This document shows, piece by piece, positions 5,963 through 48,831 of a DNA stretch of 48,854 bases. The notes under the pieces were generated by a model that saw only the letters and a program-made list of their open reading frames with translations, did no database searches and was not told the origin of the DNA. Location: NCBI GenBank assembly GCA_019247695.1, contig JAFBAP010000063.1, forward strand, positions 1 through 48,854. Direction: 5' to 3'. This DNA comes from Verrucomicrobiota bacterium (GTDB lineage: Bacteria; Verrucomicrobiota; Verrucomicrobiia; Chthoniobacterales; JAFAMB01). How positions within the stretch are numbered: position 1 is the stretch's first letter; every line of letters begins with the position of its first letter. The position numbers and the translations under genes were made by a program.

Positions 5963-5983
5963 AGGCCAACTTCGGTCACACGG

Positions 5984-6070
5984 TCACACGGCGATCGCAG
6001 CGGGAGAAAGCGGGCACGACGTAAGAGTTCACACGGCGAACACGGCGGACCACGGCGACCACAGCGAGAA
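5984..6070 (+). repeat. Interspersed repeat copy B
   Basis: This copy starts tcacacggcgatcgcagcgg, carries the core gcgggcacgacgtaagag and ends with cacggcgaccacagcgagaa. It pairs with copy C (6111-6247), which runs in the opposite direction: most of the 5'-half matches are exact, with B holding about 18 extra bases (acacggcggaccacggcg). The two copies form a long imperfect inverted repeat with roughly 100 bp between the matching arms, downstream of the ABC exporter. Confidence 0.75.
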
Positions 6071-6110
6071 GACAAAATCACCCGGCCCCTGACGCTCGAC
6101 CCCGGATTCG

Positions 6111-6247
6111 GCCCCGGGGCAAAGACGGCGCAAGTTCCTGGCATGCCTAACCAGCAGACCTCATCTGCGGCATTCTTCTCCCCGCTGTGGTCGCCGTGTG
6201 AACTCTTACGTCGTGCCCGCTTTCTTCCGCTGCGATCGCCGTGTGAC
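6111..6247 (-). repeat. Interspersed repeat copy C, full-length type
   Basis: Read on the minus strand it begins gtcacacggcgatcgcagcg, passes the gcgggcacgacgtaagag core and continues gaagaatgccgcagatgagg, then ttaggcatgccaggaacttg, and ends cgccgtctttgccccgg. The same order, with scattered substitutions, is found at 48608-48766. This defines a family unit of about 135-160 bp with a fixed 3' tail. It lies 4 bp past the stop of the small minus-strand gene at 6251. No ORF, terminal repeats or target duplication were recognised. Confidence 0.72.
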
Positions 6248-11555: not shown

Positions 11556-14174
11556 ATGTTCCACCGACTGATTCCCTTCCTTTGGTTCACGGCCTCATTG
11601 GCCGTCGTGGGCTGCAATCAACCGGCGGACACCTCCGCCCAGATCCAGGCCCTTAACGACAAAATCCGTGACGTTGAAAAACGCGAACAGCAACTGCAGC
11701 TGCAAGCCGAACGGGATAAATTGGACGCCGAGCGTGCGGCTTTGGCGGCTGAGCGTAAGGACCTGGAGGCGAAAAAAGCGGGCTTTGGGCCCGATTCACG
11801 ATCAAAAGCGCCGGTCCTGCTTGCCGCCTCATCCGACGAAACGCGGCATCCCCGGCATGCAGATCGTTCCGAGAGCGACGGTGACGAGGAGCGTCCGGCA
11901 GCGGCCGATGACGATGACGCCGGCTATGATGGTCCGCCCCCGTCCGGCGCATCCTACGACGTCTTCTACGAAGATCTACGGGAAGGCGGCCAATGGTTTG
12001 ACGACGCCACTTATGGGTACGTGTGGCAGCCCGAGGTGGCGGCCGAAGATCCAGGCTGGCGGCCTTATACCGATGGCCGCTGGGTCTACACCGACCGTGG
12101 CTGGACCTGGGTTTCCAACGAAAGTTTTGGTTGGGCATGTTACCATTATGGCCGTTGGGCCCGACTGCGGGAGCGCGGCTGGATCTGGGTGCCGGGTGAT
12201 CGATGGGCGCCCGCCTGGGTTTCCTGGCGGGAGTCAGAGGATGAAGGTTACGTCGGTTGGGCGCCCCTCCCGCCCGAGTGCGAGCCGCAGCCCCGAACGC
12301 GGGTCCAGGGGTGGGTTGATCAGTATTACGATATCGGCCCGGCAGCGTACGTCTTCCTCAAGATCGCTGACCTGGTGCGGCCTTCCTACCGGCAATCGGT
12401 GCTGCCCGTGCAGCAAAACGTTTCGATTATCGAGCGCACCAGAAACATCACCGACATCTACTACAACAACCAGACCGTCAATGTTGCGGGACCTCGGTAC
12501 GAACAGTTGGTGCAGCGGGTCAACCAGCCCATTCCCAAATGCCAGATCGACTACGTAACGCCTGCCCAACCGCGGGCTCCGTTCCAGACGGTTATTACCG
12601 GCAACCGCCTGCAAGTCGTCGCGCCGCCTGCCCGGTTGCAGCCTCGGGCCACCGTCCCGCCCCGGGCGACCCAGACGATTCAGAGTGCTCAAGTCGAACG
12701 GGGTTGGCAAAACGTTGACCCGGATCATGCCCGGCAGATCCGTCAGGCCTTGGCCCGCAGCGAACCCCAGGTCCCAAAAACCTTGCCTCCACAACCGGCG
12801 CCGCCGCCCAAAGCGGTGATCGTGGCGCGCCAGCCGTCGGCGGGGACACCTGCCGCTCCTCAGGCATCGCCCGGCGCCAATGACCTTTCGGCGCAACGGA
12901 CGAAGCTGGAAGCGGAGCGCGCCCGGCTTGAGCAGCAGAAGCAGGCGCTCGAGCAGCATAACCAGCCGCCGCAGGCCGGGCCGCCGCACCAGCAGGCATC
13001 CCCGCCGCAGCCCGGCACCCAACGGCAGCCTCAGCTGCCACCGGGAGCGCAACCACCCCCGGCCGGCGCCCGGCAAGCCCAGCAGCCGCAGACCGCGCCG
13101 GGGCCGGCGCAAAAGCAGCAGCCGTTGAACGCTCAGCCGGAAGCCTCGCAGCGCCAGGCCGGGCAGCAGCCCGCGCAACCCCAGCCCCAGGCCGCACAAT
13201 CACCACAGCAGCCGCAGGCGCAACCGGAAACGCAGCGGCACGCGCAAGCCGGGCAGCAGCCTGCGCAACCGGCTGCCGGCCAGCGCCAGGCCGAGCAGCA
13301 GCGCGTCCGGCAGCCGAACGCGCCATCACCGGCCGGCGCTCAACACCAGGTCGAACCGGGACCTCAAGCCGCACAATCGCCCGCTGCGGTTCAAAAACCC
13401 GAGCAGCCCAAAGCCGGACAACCGCCGGTCGCCCCGCCGGCAACCCCGCCGCAGGTTGATACCCGGCAGGTTCAGCAACCGCAATCCCGGCCGGAGGCGA
13501 CCCGGCAACAGGCCGAACAGCAACCTGCCCACCCGCAAGTTGAACAGGAGCAAGCTGCGGCGAAACAACGCGAGCTGGAGGCGCAAAAGCAGCAACAGTT
13601 GAAAGCCCAGCAGGAAGCTGCCCAGCATCAGGCCGAACAGCAACGCGCGCAGCAGGAAGCTGCCCAACGCCAGGCGGCGCAACAGCAGCAGCAGGAAGCG
13701 CAGCGGCGTGCGCAGGCCGCCGAGGCGGCCCAACGGCAACAAGCCGCCGAGCAACAGCGGGCCCAGCAGGCGGCGGCTGCCCAGCACCAGGCCGAACAGC
13801 AGCGCGCCCAGCAGGAAGCCGCCCAACGGCAACAGGCTGCCCAGCACCAGGCCGAGCAACAGCGAGCCCAGCAGGCCGCGGCCCAGGCCGCCGCTCAAAA
13901 ACAGGCGCAAGCCGCCGCTCATCAGCAGGAACAGGAAGCGCAGCGGCGCGCGCAAGCCGAGGCAGCCCAACGGCAGGAGGCGGCGCAGCACCAAGCCGAG
14001 CAACAACAGCGGGCCCAGCAGGCCGCGGCTCAGAAGCAGGCAGAAGCGGCTGCTGCGGCCGCTCACCAGGCGCCGCCCCAGAAAGCCCAGGCGGAAAAGG
14101 CGGCTGCGGAAAAGGCCGCTGCGGAACAGCGGGCCAAAGGGCATCCCTCGCCCCCCGGCGAGCGGTCCCAGTGA
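11556..14174 (+). CDS. DUF6600-type lipoprotein with a very long Gln/Ala-rich tail
   Basis: This 872-residue predicted lipoprotein has a signal peptide ending in lipobox VVGC, with Cys20 as the lipidated residue. A coiled-coil-like stretch (about residues 27-77, rich in Gln/Glu/Lys) follows. The central domain at about 140-265 is rich in Trp and Tyr, with repeated G-x-W units such as WRPYTDGRWVYTDRGWTWV and GYVGWAPLPPE, the hallmark of DUF6600. From about 420 to the end the protein is mostly Gln, Ala, Pro, Glu and Arg, with repeats like QAEQQRAQQEAAQRQ. The family role is unclear; an envelope or surface-anchored fibrous protein is the best inference. It converges on the YihY gene, with only 10 bp between the two stops. 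Confidence 0.75.
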   Translation: MFHRLIPFLWFTASLAVVGCNQPADTSAQIQALNDKIRDVEKREQQLQLQAERDKLDAERAALAAERKDLEAKKAGFGPDSRSKAPVLLAASSDETRHPRHADRSESDGDEERPAAADDDDAGYDGPPPSGASYDVFYEDLREGGQWFDDATYGYVWQPEVAAEDPGWRPYTDGRWVYTDRGWTWVSNESFGWACYHYGRWARLRERGWIWVPGDRWAPAWVSWRESEDEGYVGWAPLPPECEPQPRTRVQGWVDQYYDIGPAAYVFLKIADLVRPSYRQSVLPVQQNVSIIERTRNITDIYYNNQTVNVAGPRYEQLVQRVNQPIPKCQIDYVTPAQPRAPFQTVITGNRLQVVAPPARLQPRATVPPRATQTIQSAQVERGWQNVDPDHARQIRQALARSEPQVPKTLPPQPAPPPKAVIVARQPSAGTPAAPQASPGANDLSAQRTKLEAERARLEQQKQALEQHNQPPQAGPPHQQASPPQPGTQRQPQLPPGAQPPPAGARQAQQPQTAPGPAQKQQPLNAQPEASQRQAGQQPAQPQPQAAQSPQQPQAQPETQRHAQAGQQPAQPAAGQRQAEQQRVRQPNAPSPAGAQHQVEPGPQAAQSPAAVQKPEQPKAGQPPVAPPATPPQVDTRQVQQPQSRPEATRQQAEQQPAHPQVEQEQAAAKQRELEAQKQQQLKAQQEAAQHQAEQQRAQQEAAQRQAAQQQQQEAQRRAQAAEAAQRQQAAEQQRAQQAAAAQHQAEQQRAQQEAAQRQQAAQHQAEQQRAQQAAAQAAAQKQAQAAAHQQEQEAQRRAQAEAAQRQEAAQHQAEQQQRAQQAAAQKQAEAAAAAAHQAPPQKAQAEKAAAEKAAAEQRAKGHPSPPGERSQ
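13600..14085 (+). repeat. Internal coding repeat (Gln/Ala-rich)
   Basis: Near-repeats of a roughly 45-bp unit, with the pattern caggccgaacagcaacgcgc and cagcaggaagctgcccaacg, fill this part of the lipoprotein gene. Unit lengths vary in multiples of three, so the frame is kept. Such arrays expand and contract easily, so length differences between related strains are likely. Confidence 0.65.
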
Positions 14175-43276: not shown

Positions 43277-44077
43277 ATGACGCGACAAATATTCTTGACT
43301 TTGGTGTGTGGTTTGATCTCGGGCATCGTACACGGCCAGTCAGTGAATGAGCGCGCGGCTAAATTTACCGAAAACGCGATGAAACTTCGCGAGGAAGTGC
43401 TCTTTAAAATTCAGCCCAGCCCCTGGCGCAATCGGCCCGGCACGCCCCTTGACGGCAAGTACCCGTGGCACAACGCCATCGTGACCACCGTCTTCTGGGT
43501 GGGTGAGATGCCCGCCGGCAATAACCCGGTCCCCAATTACGCCAGCGCTTGGGACCTCAACTGGGCGCGGAATTTCGGCGGCACCGATTATCCTGAGAGC
43601 CGGCGCGGATTTATCCCGGCCTCGTTCGTGCCGCGCCAGAACCCGTTCTACATCGCCCTTCCTTACAACGACGTGAGCGGCGGCCGGACCAAACCTGAGG
43701 CCAGCCAACTCATTCCCTGGTTCAAAGCGGCTTTCGTCCAATTTGGCCATACGGTTCTGAAAGATCGCTGGGTGGCCATTCGCAAAGGCGAAAGAATGTG
43801 TTATGCCCAGTGGGAGGATGTCGGCCCGTTCCGTACCGATCATGTCGAATACGTTTTCGGGTCGGAACGGCCGCGGCCCAACCTGAACCGCGGGGCCGGT
43901 CTCGACGTCTCCCCGGCCGTGCGCGATTACCTTGGGATTTCCAGCACTGACACGACGGATTGGAAATTCGTCGAGTTCACCGAGGTGCCGCCCGGTCCGT
44001 GGGGGCTTTACGGCGATAACAACACGTTTGTGCTCGAACGTCACAAACGCGAAGAGCAACTCGCCAGCCGCCGATGA
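43277..44077 (+). CDS. Secreted protein of unknown function, coupled to gltI
   Basis: A 266-residue exported protein with signal peptide MTRQIFLTLVCGLISGIVHG. The mature part is conserved-looking, with TTVFWVGEMPAGNN, WDLNWARNFGGTD, PRQNPFYIALPYND, MCYAQWEDVGPFRTDHVEYV and AGLDVSPAVRDYLGI. The last segments (a Gly-Pro-Phe-Thr/Arg element followed by a G-L-D-x-S-x-x-x-x-x-x-L-G helix) resemble the double-psi beta-barrel of RlpA-like or 3D-type proteins, which bind or cleave peptidoglycan, but I cannot call the family firmly. The stop overlaps gltI (ATGA), so it is translated from the same message. A role linked with amino-acid uptake is only positional inference. Confidence 0.7.
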   Translation: MTRQIFLTLVCGLISGIVHGQSVNERAAKFTENAMKLREEVLFKIQPSPWRNRPGTPLDGKYPWHNAIVTTVFWVGEMPAGNNPVPNYASAWDLNWARNFGGTDYPESRRGFIPASFVPRQNPFYIALPYNDVSGGRTKPEASQLIPWFKAAFVQFGHTVLKDRWVAIRKGERMCYAQWEDVGPFRTDHVEYVFGSERPRPNLNRGAGLDVSPAVRDYLGISSTDTTDWKFVEFTEVPPGPWGLYGDNNTFVLERHKREEQLASRR

Positions 44078-44970
44078 AACGTTTTTTGCTGGCTGCCGGC
44101 AGCCTGATGGTGTTTGCCGCGGTGCCCGGCATCGCCGCCGCGGAGGAGCTTGCCGGCACCTTGAAGAAGATCAAGGATACGGGGGTGATGGTGATCGGCC
44201 ATCGCGAGTCGTCCATCCCGTTTTCCTATTACGACGACAAAAACCAGGTCGTGGGTTACTCCCAGGATTTGGCGATGCTCGTCGTGGAAGCCGTTAAGAA
44301 AAAACTCAACCTGCCGGGGCTCCAGGTGAAACTCACCCCGGTCACTTCGCAGAACCGCATCCCCCTGGTCCAGAACGGCACGGTCGATCTGGAAGCAGGC
44401 TCCACGACTCATAACGCCGAGCGAGCCAAACAGGTCGCCTTTTCCGACACCACCTTCGTCGTCGGCACGCGGCTGCTGGTAAAGAAGGGTTCGGGGATCC
44501 AGGATTTTCCTGACCTCAAAGGCAAAAACGTCGTCACCACGGCGGGCACCACGTCGGAGCGCATTCTGCGTGAGTTGAATGGAAAGGGGCTCGGCATCAA
44601 CGTCATCAGCGCAAAGGATCATGGTGAAGCGTTCCTGATGCTGCAAAGCGGGCGGGCGGCGGCCTTCATGATGGATGATGCCCTGCTGGCCGGCGAACGC
44701 GCGAAGGCCCGTAAGCCGGATGATTGGGTCATCGTGGGAACGCCGCAGTCGAAGGAGGCGTACGCGATGGCGTTGCGGAAGGACGACCCCGGGTTCAAGC
44801 AGGTCGTCGACGCAGCGGTTGCGGAAGCGGAAACTTCCGGTGCAGCCGCCAAACTGTATCAGAGATGGTTCGAGTCGCCGGTACCTCCCAAAGGCCTCAA
44901 CCTTGATCTGCCCTTGAGCGATGATCTCAAAGAGGTCTTCGCGCATCCGACCGACCAAGCCTACCAGTAA
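44074..44970 (+). CDS. gltI: Glutamate/aspartate-type ABC transporter substrate-binding protein
   Basis: This 298-residue periplasmic binding protein (SBP_bac_3) has signal peptide MKRFLLAAGSLMVFAAVPGI with cleavage near AAAEE. Mature motifs: MVIGHRESSIPFSYYDDKNQ, GYSQDLAMLVVEAVKKKL, LVQNGTVDLEAGSTTHNAER and FSDTTFVVGTRLLVKKGSGI, all family type. It ends LPLSDDLKEVFAHPTDQAY, which is characteristic of GltI. Glutamate/aspartate is favoured over other acids by these sequences, as inference from the family. The start overlaps the preceding secreted-protein gene by 4 bp. The gap to the permease gene holds a 38-bp inverted repeat. Confidence 0.88.
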   Translation: MKRFLLAAGSLMVFAAVPGIAAAEELAGTLKKIKDTGVMVIGHRESSIPFSYYDDKNQVVGYSQDLAMLVVEAVKKKLNLPGLQVKLTPVTSQNRIPLVQNGTVDLEAGSTTHNAERAKQVAFSDTTFVVGTRLLVKKGSGIQDFPDLKGKNVVTTAGTTSERILRELNGKGLGINVISAKDHGEAFLMLQSGRAAAFMMDDALLAGERAKARKPDDWVIVGTPQSKEAYAMALRKDDPGFKQVVDAAVAEAETSGAAAKLYQRWFESPVPPKGLNLDLPLSDDLKEVFAHPTDQAYQ

Positions 44971-44978
44971 GAAGGTGT

Positions 44979-45075
44979 GAGGGAAAGCTCATGAAGTTCG
45001 CCGGCCTCGGTTCCCATCTGCCTTTGTGGTCGCCGTGTGGGAACCGAGGCCGGCGAACTTCATGAGCTTTCCCTC
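44979..45075. repeat. 38-bp perfect inverted repeat spanning the gltJ start
   Basis: Arms 44979-45016 and 45038-45075 are exact complements around a 21-bp spacer. The right arm includes the last 23 bases before the gltJ ATG, the ATG itself and the first 14 coding bases (gagctttccctc within). Transcribed, this would form a very stable hairpin with the start codon inside the stem. It looks like an inverted duplication of the gltJ start region. The spacer (tttgtggtcgccgtgt) resembles the inverted interspersed repeats. Confidence 0.85.
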
Positions 45076-45820
45076 GCACACTTTCCTGGGCCTGGACTGG
45101 AGCATTTTCAGCCAGCCGGCGTTCGATCGCAGCGGCACGTATTTTCAATTCCTGCTCGTCGGGCTGCAGTGGACCTTGATTATTTCCATCGCCGGGTGGG
45201 CGATCGCCTTCGCCGTCGGATCGATCGCCGGGATCATGCGGACCTTGCCGGGCCGCGTCCTGCCGTTCGTTGCCGCCGTTTACGTCGAGGTCTTTCGTAA
45301 CGTTCCGTTACTGGTCCAGCTGTTCCTCTGGTATTTTGTAATGCCTGAGCTCGTTCCCGGGATCGGAACGTGGTTCAAGCAGGACCTCAGTCCCTTGTTG
45401 CAGCAATCGGTGGCGGGGGTTCTCTGCCTCGGCTTTTTCACCGGCGCCCGCGTCGCCGAACAGGTGCGTTCCGGCCTGGGTTCGCTGCCCCGCGGCCAGC
45501 GGGCTGCCGGGCTCGCCCTCGGCTTTAACCTCGCGCAGGTTTACCTCCTGATCCTGCTGCCGGTGGCTTATCGCATCATCATTCCCACGTTGACCTCCGA
45601 ATTCCTGAATATCGTTAAGAATTCGGCGGTGGCTTCCACCATCGGTCTGGTCGAACTCTCCCGCCAAAGCCAGCAGTTGGGGGAATTTACCGCGCATTGG
45701 TACGAGTCTTTTATCGCCGTAACCCTCCTGTACGCCGTCATCAACGTCGTCGTCATGCTGGCGGCGCGTTACCTTGAACGGGCAGCCCGCCTGCCCGGGC
45801 TGGTTGGAGGCCATAAATAA
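45062..45820 (+). CDS. gltJ: Glutamate/aspartate ABC transporter permease
   Basis: This 252-residue membrane permease has SFPSHTFLGLDWSIFSQPAF at the start, the typical GltJ N-terminus, then helices with LQWTLIISIAGWAIAFAVGS, VEVFRNVPLLVQLFLWYFVM and the EAA loop VRSGLGSLPRGQRAAGLALG. Residues NSAVASTIGLVELSRQSQQL follow. The ATG at 45062 lies within the right arm of the 38-bp inverted repeat; a GTG at 45026 in the same frame, inside the spacer, would add 12 residues. Without an SD-like sequence in clear view, the start is the least certain in this operon. Stop abuts the gltK ATG. Confidence 0.87.
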   Translation: MSFPSHTFLGLDWSIFSQPAFDRSGTYFQFLLVGLQWTLIISIAGWAIAFAVGSIAGIMRTLPGRVLPFVAAVYVEVFRNVPLLVQLFLWYFVMPELVPGIGTWFKQDLSPLLQQSVAGVLCLGFFTGARVAEQVRSGLGSLPRGQRAAGLALGFNLAQVYLLILLPVAYRIIIPTLTSEFLNIVKNSAVASTIGLVELSRQSQQLGEFTAHWYESFIAVTLLYAVINVVVMLAARYLERAARLPGLVGGHK

Positions 45821-46495
45821 ATGCCGGCATTGGACTGGAGTTCGATCCCGGGCGCCCTGCCGTTTTTGTGGGGTGGCATGCTGGTCACGTTGTCGATCAC
45901 CGGGATTGCCATCCTGGTCGGGATCCTGCTGGGCACCCTGATTGCCATGGCCCGTTTGTCCGGCAACGGGATTCTGTCCGGCATCGCGGCCTTGTACGTC
46001 AACGGGTTCCGTTCTATCCCGCTGGTGATGGTCCTGCTCTGGTTCTACCTGCTGGTTCCCCAGTTGATTCAGGCATTGTTCAAGACTCCAGGGGCCGACA
46101 TCCGGCTGGTATCCGCTTTCGTGGCTTTTTCGCTCTTTGAGGCGTCTTACTACGCGGAAATCATTCGTGCGGGCATCCAAAGCGTTTCGCGCGGCCAGGT
46201 TTCCGCCGGCCTGGCCCTGGGTATGTCACGCGCCCAGACCATGCGCCTGATTGTCTTGCCCCAGGCGTTCCGCCGGATGTTGCCCCTGCTTCTTACCCAG
46301 GCAATCATCCTCTTCCAGGATACCTCGCTGGTTTATGTCATCGGGCTCTCCGAGTTTTTCGGCGTCGCTTACCGGACGGGAGACCGCGACGGCACGATCG
46401 TTGAGCTCCTCCTGTTTGCCGGGGCGGTCTATTTTGTGGTCTGTTTTGCCGCCTCCGGCATCGTGCGGGTATTACAGAAAAAAATCGCGTTATGA
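45821..46495 (+). CDS. gltK: Glutamate/aspartate ABC transporter permease
   Basis: The 224-residue second permease of the importer pairs with GltJ as a heterodimer in the inner membrane. The N-terminus [20 protein letters not shown] is a GltK hallmark. [20 protein letters not shown] and the EAA loop [20 protein letters not shown] plus [20 protein letters not shown] follow. It begins directly after the gltJ stop with no spacer and overlaps gltL by 4 bp (ATGA), so the importer is translated as a coupled unit. Confidence 0.88.
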
Positions 46496-47220
46496 TCTCC
46501 ATTCAGGATATCTCCAAGTGGTACGGCGAGTTTCAGGTCTTGCGCGATTGCACGACGCGCGTCGAGAAAGGGGAGGTCGTCGTGGTTTGCGGGCCCTCAG
46601 GCAGCGGCAAGTCGACCTTGATCAAGTGCGTGAACGGACTGGAGCCGTTCCAGAAAGGCGAGATCCGCATCGAGAACGTCTCGGTGGGCCATCGCCGGAC
46701 CAATTTACCCCGGCTGCGCGCCCGCGTCGGGATGGTCTTCCAGCATTTCGAGCTCTTCCCGCATTTAACGGTGATGCAGAACCTGACGATCGCGCAACAG
46801 CGGGTGCTGAAGCGAAAAGGCCGGGATGCGACCGACAAAGGTCTTGCGCTGCTCGACGTGGTCGGCTTGAAGGCGCACGCCCAGAAATACCCGGCCCAGC
46901 TCTCCGGCGGGCAGCAACAACGGGTCGCGATCGCCAGGGCCCTGGCCATGGATCCGATCGCCATGCTCTTCGACGAACCCACCTCCGCCCTGGATCCGGA
47001 AATGATCAAGGAAGTCCTCGACGTGATGGTGCGCCTGGCCCAGGAGGGCATGACCATGATGGTCGTCACTCACGAGATGGGGTTCGCCCGGCGCGTCGCC
47101 AACCGCGTCATCTTCATGGACGAGGGCCAAATCGTTGAGGACCGCCCGAAAGACGACTTCTTCAAAGATCCGGGTACGGAACGGGCCCGGCAGTTCTTGT
47201 CGAAGATCCTGGCCCATTGA
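46492..47220 (+). CDS. gltL: Glutamate/aspartate ABC transporter ATP-binding protein
   Basis: This 242-residue ATPase (GlnQ/GltL class) powers the importer. Walker [10 protein letters not shown] (near residues 34-42), [15 protein letters not shown], signature [16 protein letters not shown] (near 139), Walker [17 protein letters not shown] and the switch His in [15 protein letters not shown] are intact. Ends [11 protein letters not shown]-like. The ATG lies in the gltK stop (ATGA overlap). A heptamer array follows 2 bp past the stop, which could influence the 3' end of the transcript. Confidence 0.9.
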
Positions 47221-47222
47221 GA

Positions 47223-47250
47223 GTGCCGGGTGCCGGGTGCCGGGTGTCGA
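47223..47250 (+). repeat. Heptamer tandem repeat (gtgccgg)n
   Basis: Three exact gtgccgg units and one variant gtgtcga start 2 bp after the gltL stop. Same family as the heptamers at 1705-1753, 47381-47415 and 48587-48607. Confidence 0.75.
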
Positions 47251-47380
47251 GTAGAGTGCGAACAAGACCACGCCATCGCCTCCATGTGCGTCCATCTGTG
47301 TAATCTGTGGATGGATCTCTTTTCTGCGTTGTCTGCGTGTTCTGCGGATGTTCTGTTCTCTCCGTGGACCGCCGCGTGAC

Positions 47381-47415
47381 CGACACCCGACACCCGACAC
47401 CCGACATCCGACACT
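47381..47415 (+). repeat. Heptamer tandem repeat (cgacacc)n
   Basis: Three exact cgacacc units, then cgacatc and cgacact, lie 8 bp before the chosen start of the FemAB-like gene. A different strand orientation of the gtgtcgg unit found after that gene. It is preceded, at about 47323-47360, by a segment (ctgcgtgttctgcggatg) that recurs inverted near 1550-1580. Confidence 0.8.
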
Positions 47416-48607: not shown

Positions 48608-48766
48608 GTCATACGGCGGGCACGGCGATTTGGCGGGCACAACGTAAGAGTTCACACGGCGAACACGGCGGGCCACGGCGAACACGGCGGAAGGAAGAAT
48701 GCCACCGATGAGGGCTGCGGGTTGGGCACGCCGGGAATCTACGCCGTCTTTGCCCCGGAGCGGCGG
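48608..48766 (+). repeat. Interspersed repeat copy D, full-length type
   Basis: The order is tcatacggcgggcacggcga, the core gcgggcacaacgtaagag, cacggcgaacacggcgg echoes, gaagaatgccaccgatgagg, ttgggcacgccgggaatcta, and the tail cgccgtctttgccccgg. The same order is found on the minus strand at 6247-6111, so both ends of the family unit are roughly defined. Its tail doubles as the left arm of the 27-bp inverted repeat at 48740-48831. Confidence 0.75.
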
Positions 48767-48831
48767 TTGGCGGTAGCCGGGAACTTTAGTGCCGAGTCCT
48801 CTCGCCGCCGCTCCGGGGCAAAGACGGCGTA
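48740..48831. repeat. 27-bp perfect inverted repeat
   Basis: 48740-48766 and 48805-48831 are exact complements around 38 bp. The arms are the tail of repeat copy D and of an oppositely oriented, incomplete copy that continues past the window edge (48805-48854). Two head-to-head family members rather than a terminator is the likely reading. Confidence 0.75.

Follow-up and report, generated by a model that had tools for sequence, protein, structure and literature searches.

A hairpin at the gltI-gltJ junction of an uncultured Verrucomicrobiota lineage, probably an old inverted pair of a 62-bp MITE-like element

REP and BIME sequences of Escherichia coli include those at malE-malF and hisJ-hisQ, and REPs between enterobacterial binding-protein and permease genes lower expression of the downstream gene and may protect the upstream mRNA. 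The Correia/NEMIS, RUP and ERIC elements are MITEs, that is, short, non-coding, multi-copy, intergenic repeats with terminal inverted repeats (TIRs), a target-site duplication (TSD) and stem-loops in RNA, and Rickettsia palindromic elements (RPE) are short mobile repeats that have become part of protein-coding genes. Hairpins can also be maintained by replication template switching, which homogenises arms and inverts spacers (PMC8604942) and can create and mend RNA stems with no need for selection to act on every pair (PMC8794818); the cases described in these two papers are RNA genes and yeast coding sequences.

The hairpin analyzed here, in a stretch of 48,854 nt (the window), appears to share features with each of these systems. 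Like the REP/BIME sites, it consists of inverted short palindrome-ended repeats between a binding-protein and a permease gene, where mRNA hairpins are expected; unlike them, its element has TIRs flanking a non-palindromic core and a 3-bp TSD, and the pair extends over two codons, the stop of the upstream gene and the start of the downstream one. The element has the general build of Correia/NEMIS, RUP and ERIC but is 62 bp long, unrelated in sequence, G+C-rich, associated with a TNA rather than a TA target and limited to one genus in our sample, in which its partner insertion sequence (IS) was not found. As with RPE, a short mobile repeat has become part of a protein-coding gene, but here the element gives gltJ its start codon and N-terminus rather than an internal segment. 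Mirrored arm changes and an apparent spacer inversion recall the template-switch cases (PMC8794818, PMC8604942), here in paired MITE copies between two genes of a bacterial operon.

Table 1. Features of the gltIJKL operon and the gltI-gltJ junction (window positions).
Feature	Position	Strand	Basis
gltI, glutamate/aspartate ABC transporter substrate-binding protein	44074-44970	+	NCBIfam NF008063, 433.6 bits (cut-off 375)
5' (inverted) element copy, cut off at inner end	44970-45019	-	Model R2, 30.3 bits, E 9e-7 (7.5e-5 over whole genome)
5' arm of perfect inverted repeat	44979-45016	+	Inverted-repeat search
Shine-Dalgarno-like GAGGGA before putative leader ORF	44979-44984	+	Sequence reading; GGGAGG at matching place in sister species
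Putative leader ORF, 24 codons, MKFAGLGSHLPLWSPCGNRGRRTS then stop	44991-45065	+	Sequence reading; TGA overlaps gltJ start as ATGA
Spacer/loop, 21 nt	45017-45037		Fits sister spacer better inverted than direct
3' element copy	45035-45086	+	Model R2 match 45035-45081, 32.8 bits, E 1.6e-7; 3' limit by aligning complete copy G001:C54:7933-7994
3' arm of perfect inverted repeat	45038-45075	+	Inverted-repeat search
gltJ, amino-acid ABC permease	45062-45820	+	Family resemblance and gene order
gltK, permease	45821-46495	+	NF011687, 304.5 bits, slightly below cut-off 318
gltL, ATP-binding protein	46492-47220	+	Best NCBIfam match GlnQ-type, under its cut-off

The original prediction had described a perfect inverted duplication of 38 bp with a 21-nt spacer, and this repeat is present (Table 1). 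Ungapped extension of the arms reaches 42 nt at 98% identity (44975-45016/45038-45079); with one 2-nt bulge allowed in the 3' arm, the 5' arm is matched over its full 42 nt. No other inverted repeat in the window has perfect arms as long, and none of equal strength arose in first-order Markov shuffles. The minimum free energy predicted for RNA of 44960-45100 is -105 kcal/mol (z = -14.4 against 200 shuffles) with the start region almost fully paired, which agrees with the claim that the arms would bury the gltJ start codon. The only Rfam 15 matches of the hairpin were to microRNA precursors and lay below threshold (best 43 bits, gathering score 100), which reflects the length of the hairpin. 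Searching the host genome (G000) with the whole hairpin yielded no second close copy, only the query itself. This lone match first suggested a locus-specific structure, a reading that was overturned once an element family surfaced in the sister species (G001), which is separately assembled and is the one other genome of the same genus in our family sample of 11 genomes.

An inverted-repeat census of G001 exposed short dispersed elements sharing words with the hairpin. In that genome the element is 62 bp long (AGARGGTGTGTGGGA...TCCCACACACCYTCT), with 15-bp TIRs (AGARGGTGTGTGGGA). An exact pattern for its two ends is present 12 times in G001 and absent from the remaining family genomes and from 384 sampled genomes of the class; single ends with one mismatch allowed number 66 in G001 and 6 in the host genome, one of the latter at the gltI stop. 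We collected 41 copies from G001. Their TIRs are often perfect; across 34 copies 95.5% of cells are paired. The TIRs also covary within copies, since double changes are seen in 24 cells where shuffles gave 6.9 +/- 3.7. Among the 18 copies with TNA at both flanks the trinucleotide is identical in 14, pointing to a 3-bp TSD.

A covariance model built from 34 copies matched tens of places in G001 (119 rows, both strands counted), about a dozen in the host genome and none in the other nine family genomes. To guard against circularity, the model was rebuilt without the gltJ copy and without host-genome copies (model R2); the host count of about a dozen places was unchanged, and both junction arms were found in the window (Table 1) and, at 76.9 and 44.2 bits, in G001. 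Copies in the host genome are mostly decayed, those in the window are weak (30-33 bits), and the link to the family leans largely on the better-kept sister copies. Elsewhere in the host genome, one copy (L283, G000:C120:7602-7660) has kept its ends perfect and is flanked by a TGA/TGA duplication that coincides exactly with the stop of an ORF, which suggests that the element moved more recently in the host species. Another locus (L300, G000:C159:81645-81734) holds a nested double copy.

With TIRs, a TSD and multiple dispersed copies that carry no protein gene of their own, the element is, by its sequence features, a new family of bacterial MITE in a BIME-like arrangement. Searches of the open-access literature turned up no description of a family that shares its target or its ends. 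REPs are defined in PMC3733652 as palindromes of 20-40 bp with a GTAG or CGTC tag and a link to RAYT transposases; against that definition REP/BIME membership was rejected, the element being 62 bp long, composed of TIRs, core and TSD, and having a consensus that contains neither tag. No autonomous transposase with the element ends, and no TIR pair at IS-length spacing, was found in either genome; a search for PF13586 gave one match in the host genome and none in G001, both of them draft assemblies. Draft assemblies often lose IS copies.

In G001 the gltJ pair is made of one complete copy and an inverted partner that lacks its inner end. The same order, with a shortened inverted copy ahead of a complete one, is found at two further G001 loci (C172 and C264), where arm identity has fallen to 87% and 76%, and additional compound copies lie at C364 in G001 and C159 in the host genome. 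Inverted element pairs thus recur in these genomes, yet near-perfect arms are seen only in the gltJ pair, and there in both species. As to insertion sites, an ORF ends within a few bases of the edge in 21 of the 41 copies, against 4.7% of random positions, and the stop lies exactly at the edge in 12/41, where ordinary TNA sites give 11.5% (p ~0.002). We do not read these counts as targeting of stop codons: any TNA spells a stop on one of its strands and the AG of the element can complete a TAG, so that preference and truncation are inseparable. Only the gltI stop is shown to be ancestral among those at element edges, because gltI ends at that residue also in relatives that lack the element; its TAA (44968-44970) shares the final A with the element, at offset 1 from the edge.

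At the same junction G001 carries a hairpin with 57-nt arms and a 15-nt loop, which answers the question of whether relatives share the repeat for the sole other genome of the genus. Relative to the window, its arms differ by three substitutions and one 5-nt indel, all mirrored on both sides, while the two arms agree with each other at 54/55 positions in the sister and at 42/42 in the window apart from the 2-nt bulge. By our estimate, which compares two genomes with one arm pair each, independent drift at 14% divergence would have produced about 6 to 8 arm-to-arm differences per species, and 0 and 1 substitutions are seen. The pair is therefore older than the split of these two related soil bacteria, as judged from the alignment, and the proposal that the arms are under maintenance is well founded, in that they agree within each species and differ between species. 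The idea of a plain duplication of the 5' region of gltJ does not hold: the inverted arms are real, but they are two inverted copies of the dispersed element. In the gltI-gltJ gaps of genera g2 and g3 the element is absent, and these gaps are too diverged to give a base-exact empty site.

A recent inverted duplication, or an error of assembly, would also leave perfect arms within one assembly, and short-read draft assemblies are prone to hairpin errors. Both readings, raised in the original prediction, are contradicted by the orthologous hairpin with mirrored changes and a different arm sequence in the independently assembled sister, which cannot be a misassembly of a single draft genome, and we consider them scarcely credible. 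In our assessment the hairpin is instead probably an old pair of 62-bp MITE-like elements in head-to-head orientation, which predates the species split and whose arms have been kept matched.

Compared over 21 nt, the host and sister spacers match at 13/21 positions when one of them is inverted and at 7/21 in direct orientation. The spacer had also been likened to interspersed repeats: together with the first two arm bases it does hold an exact 15-mer (TGTGGTCGCCGTGTG) that recurs in a repeat at 6186-6200, but the inverted sister spacer aligns better, so kinship with those GTTCACACGGCGACCACGG repeats is at most possible. Several other repeats occur in the window. Long inverted repeats at 1440-1691 and 5983-6247 belong to a different dispersed family (GTTCACACGGCGAACACGGCGAGCCACGGCG...) with many more copies across the sampled stretches of the host genome (about 0.95 Mb including the window); a 27-bp inverted repeat at 48740-48831 (TACGCCGTCTTTGCCCCGGAGCGGCGG) represents another dispersed short-loop hairpin family (copies at L146:8556-8637 and L156:13514-13595). 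Inverted arrays of short repeats (GTGCCGGGTGCCGGGTG ... CGACACCCGACACCCG) follow gltL directly (47227-47403) and have similar arrays elsewhere in the genome, and 13106-14030 is a long internally repetitive stretch with CAG/GCC-rich words (repeat families D1-D3, D5, D6 and D8), possibly a Gln/Ala-rich coding region.

The closest named records to the host are Verrucomicrobiota metagenome-assembled genomes, placing it in an uncultured lineage of that phylum. The operon reads as gltIJKL, with gltI firmly identified; the assignments of gltJ, gltK and gltL rest on family resemblance and gene order. Beyond its own family, the closest relatives of the permease are betaproteobacterial genes at ~60% identity (loci L036-L112), which suggests an old horizontal transfer of the operon. 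All in-frame start candidates of gltJ (ATG 45062, GTG 45035 and GTG 45026) lie within the hairpin; the most likely is ATG 45062, inside the 3' arm, and with this start the repeat runs from 24 bp upstream to 14 bp inside the gene, as had been predicted. Homology with gltJ of relatives begins at GLDW, right past the element border, and the start codon and first residues (MSFPSHTFL) are, on this alignment, supplied by the 3' element copy. The gene is intact: its protein is 91% identical to that of G001, and across 744 nt the two species differ at 104 (14%), with mostly synonymous changes (68 changed codons synonymous, 22 nonsynonymous). The mirrored 5-nt indel alone would shift the gltJ frame, and the coding 3' arm of the window has two extra bases that the non-coding arm lacks; because this 2-nt offset joins the 5-nt indel, the net change in the coding arm is three bases. 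The frame is thus restored through the 3' arm, a good indication that the N-terminus encoded by the element is translated. Many reading frames leave other copies of the element, and homology support for a gene starting from it was found for gltJ only.

For the agreement of the arms, the likeliest explanation from these comparisons is template switching, with selection perhaps helping: replication forks would switch template inside the palindrome, homogenising the arms and flipping the spacer, and purifying selection on the hairpin may add to their maintenance. Since template switching alone can mirror changes, covariation at this hairpin is no proof of RNA function. The pair might accordingly be a harmless old insertion homogenised by template switching only (PMC8604942, PMC8794818), with gltJ adapted to its element-borne start and no regulation involved. 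Many other element copies are intergenic and show no sign of function, which suits this view; the decay of the two other inverted pairs of the sister does not, given the near-perfect gltJ pair of both species, nor does the reading frame preserved through the 3' arm despite the 5-nt indel, although the selection shown there acts on gltJ and not on the hairpin. We regard such a neutral relic as a serious contender, somewhat short of even.

The opposite account, in which compensatory point mutations without template switching preserve a hairpin that sets subunit stoichiometry, draws on the position between binding-protein and permease genes, for which the REP sequences in malE-malF offer an analogue. 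In some relatives of genus g4 that lack the element, the same gap is filled by unrelated inverted repeats (GATTGGTGATTGG... in L011, 31-nt arms; GTGAGAGGTGAGA... in L013, 24-nt arms), which is compatible with a possible shared need for a hairpin at this junction. Against this account, G-U intermediates are almost absent, a mirrored multi-base indel and an apparent spacer inversion are hard to reach through point compensations, and genera g2 and g3 have no such hairpin; we judge it unlikely.

The stem may also act on expression. For the start region the predicted unpaired probability is 0.16 in one hairpin species and 0.00 in the other, while the four element-free g2/g3 relatives reach 0.29-0.37. 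On gltIJKL mRNA the hairpin would hide the gltJ start, so that less permease than binding protein is made, and it may shield gltI mRNA from 3' decay; we put forward this proposed effect tentatively. A cut by RNase III or RNase E would part gltI from gltJKL mRNA in a different way. The stem offers about 40 bp of near-perfect dsRNA, and NEMIS transcripts are proposed RNase III targets while ERIC changes transcript stability (PMC2229807). Such a cut could, however, strip the start codon of gltJ from the downstream mRNA, and we judge a processing site unlikely.

Returning to a hairpin that hides the gltJ start, residual translation could come from a putative leader ORF (Table 1). Ribosomes that have finished gltI would begin again at its ATG (44991), unfold the stem and terminate at the ATGA on the gltJ start. 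The same 24-codon frame is open in the sister (MKFSVLGFHTTAKKVCGNRGRRTS then stop), where its TGA likewise overlaps the gltJ ATG; it may be open by chance, because symmetry fixes both ends and few loop codons are free for a stop. We regard coupling of gltJ to gltI through this ORF as rather doubtful. A fuller model, in which the MITE pair has been domesticated as a translation valve comprising leader ORF and downstream start, with its stem kept perfect by the mutation bias of template switching and not by selection on single pairs, strikes us as improbable.

The uncommon aspect of this locus is how the element is used, with its ends on the gltI stop and over the gltJ start and with paired arms that have changed in concert between species. 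It is an apparent natural case of a palindromic mobile element lying on both the stop and the start codon of one operon. Two related species with mirrored arm changes and an apparent spacer flip make selection and template-switch mutation testable against each other in a bacterium, and the locus is a caution against taking covariation alone as proof that hairpins of this type function as RNA.
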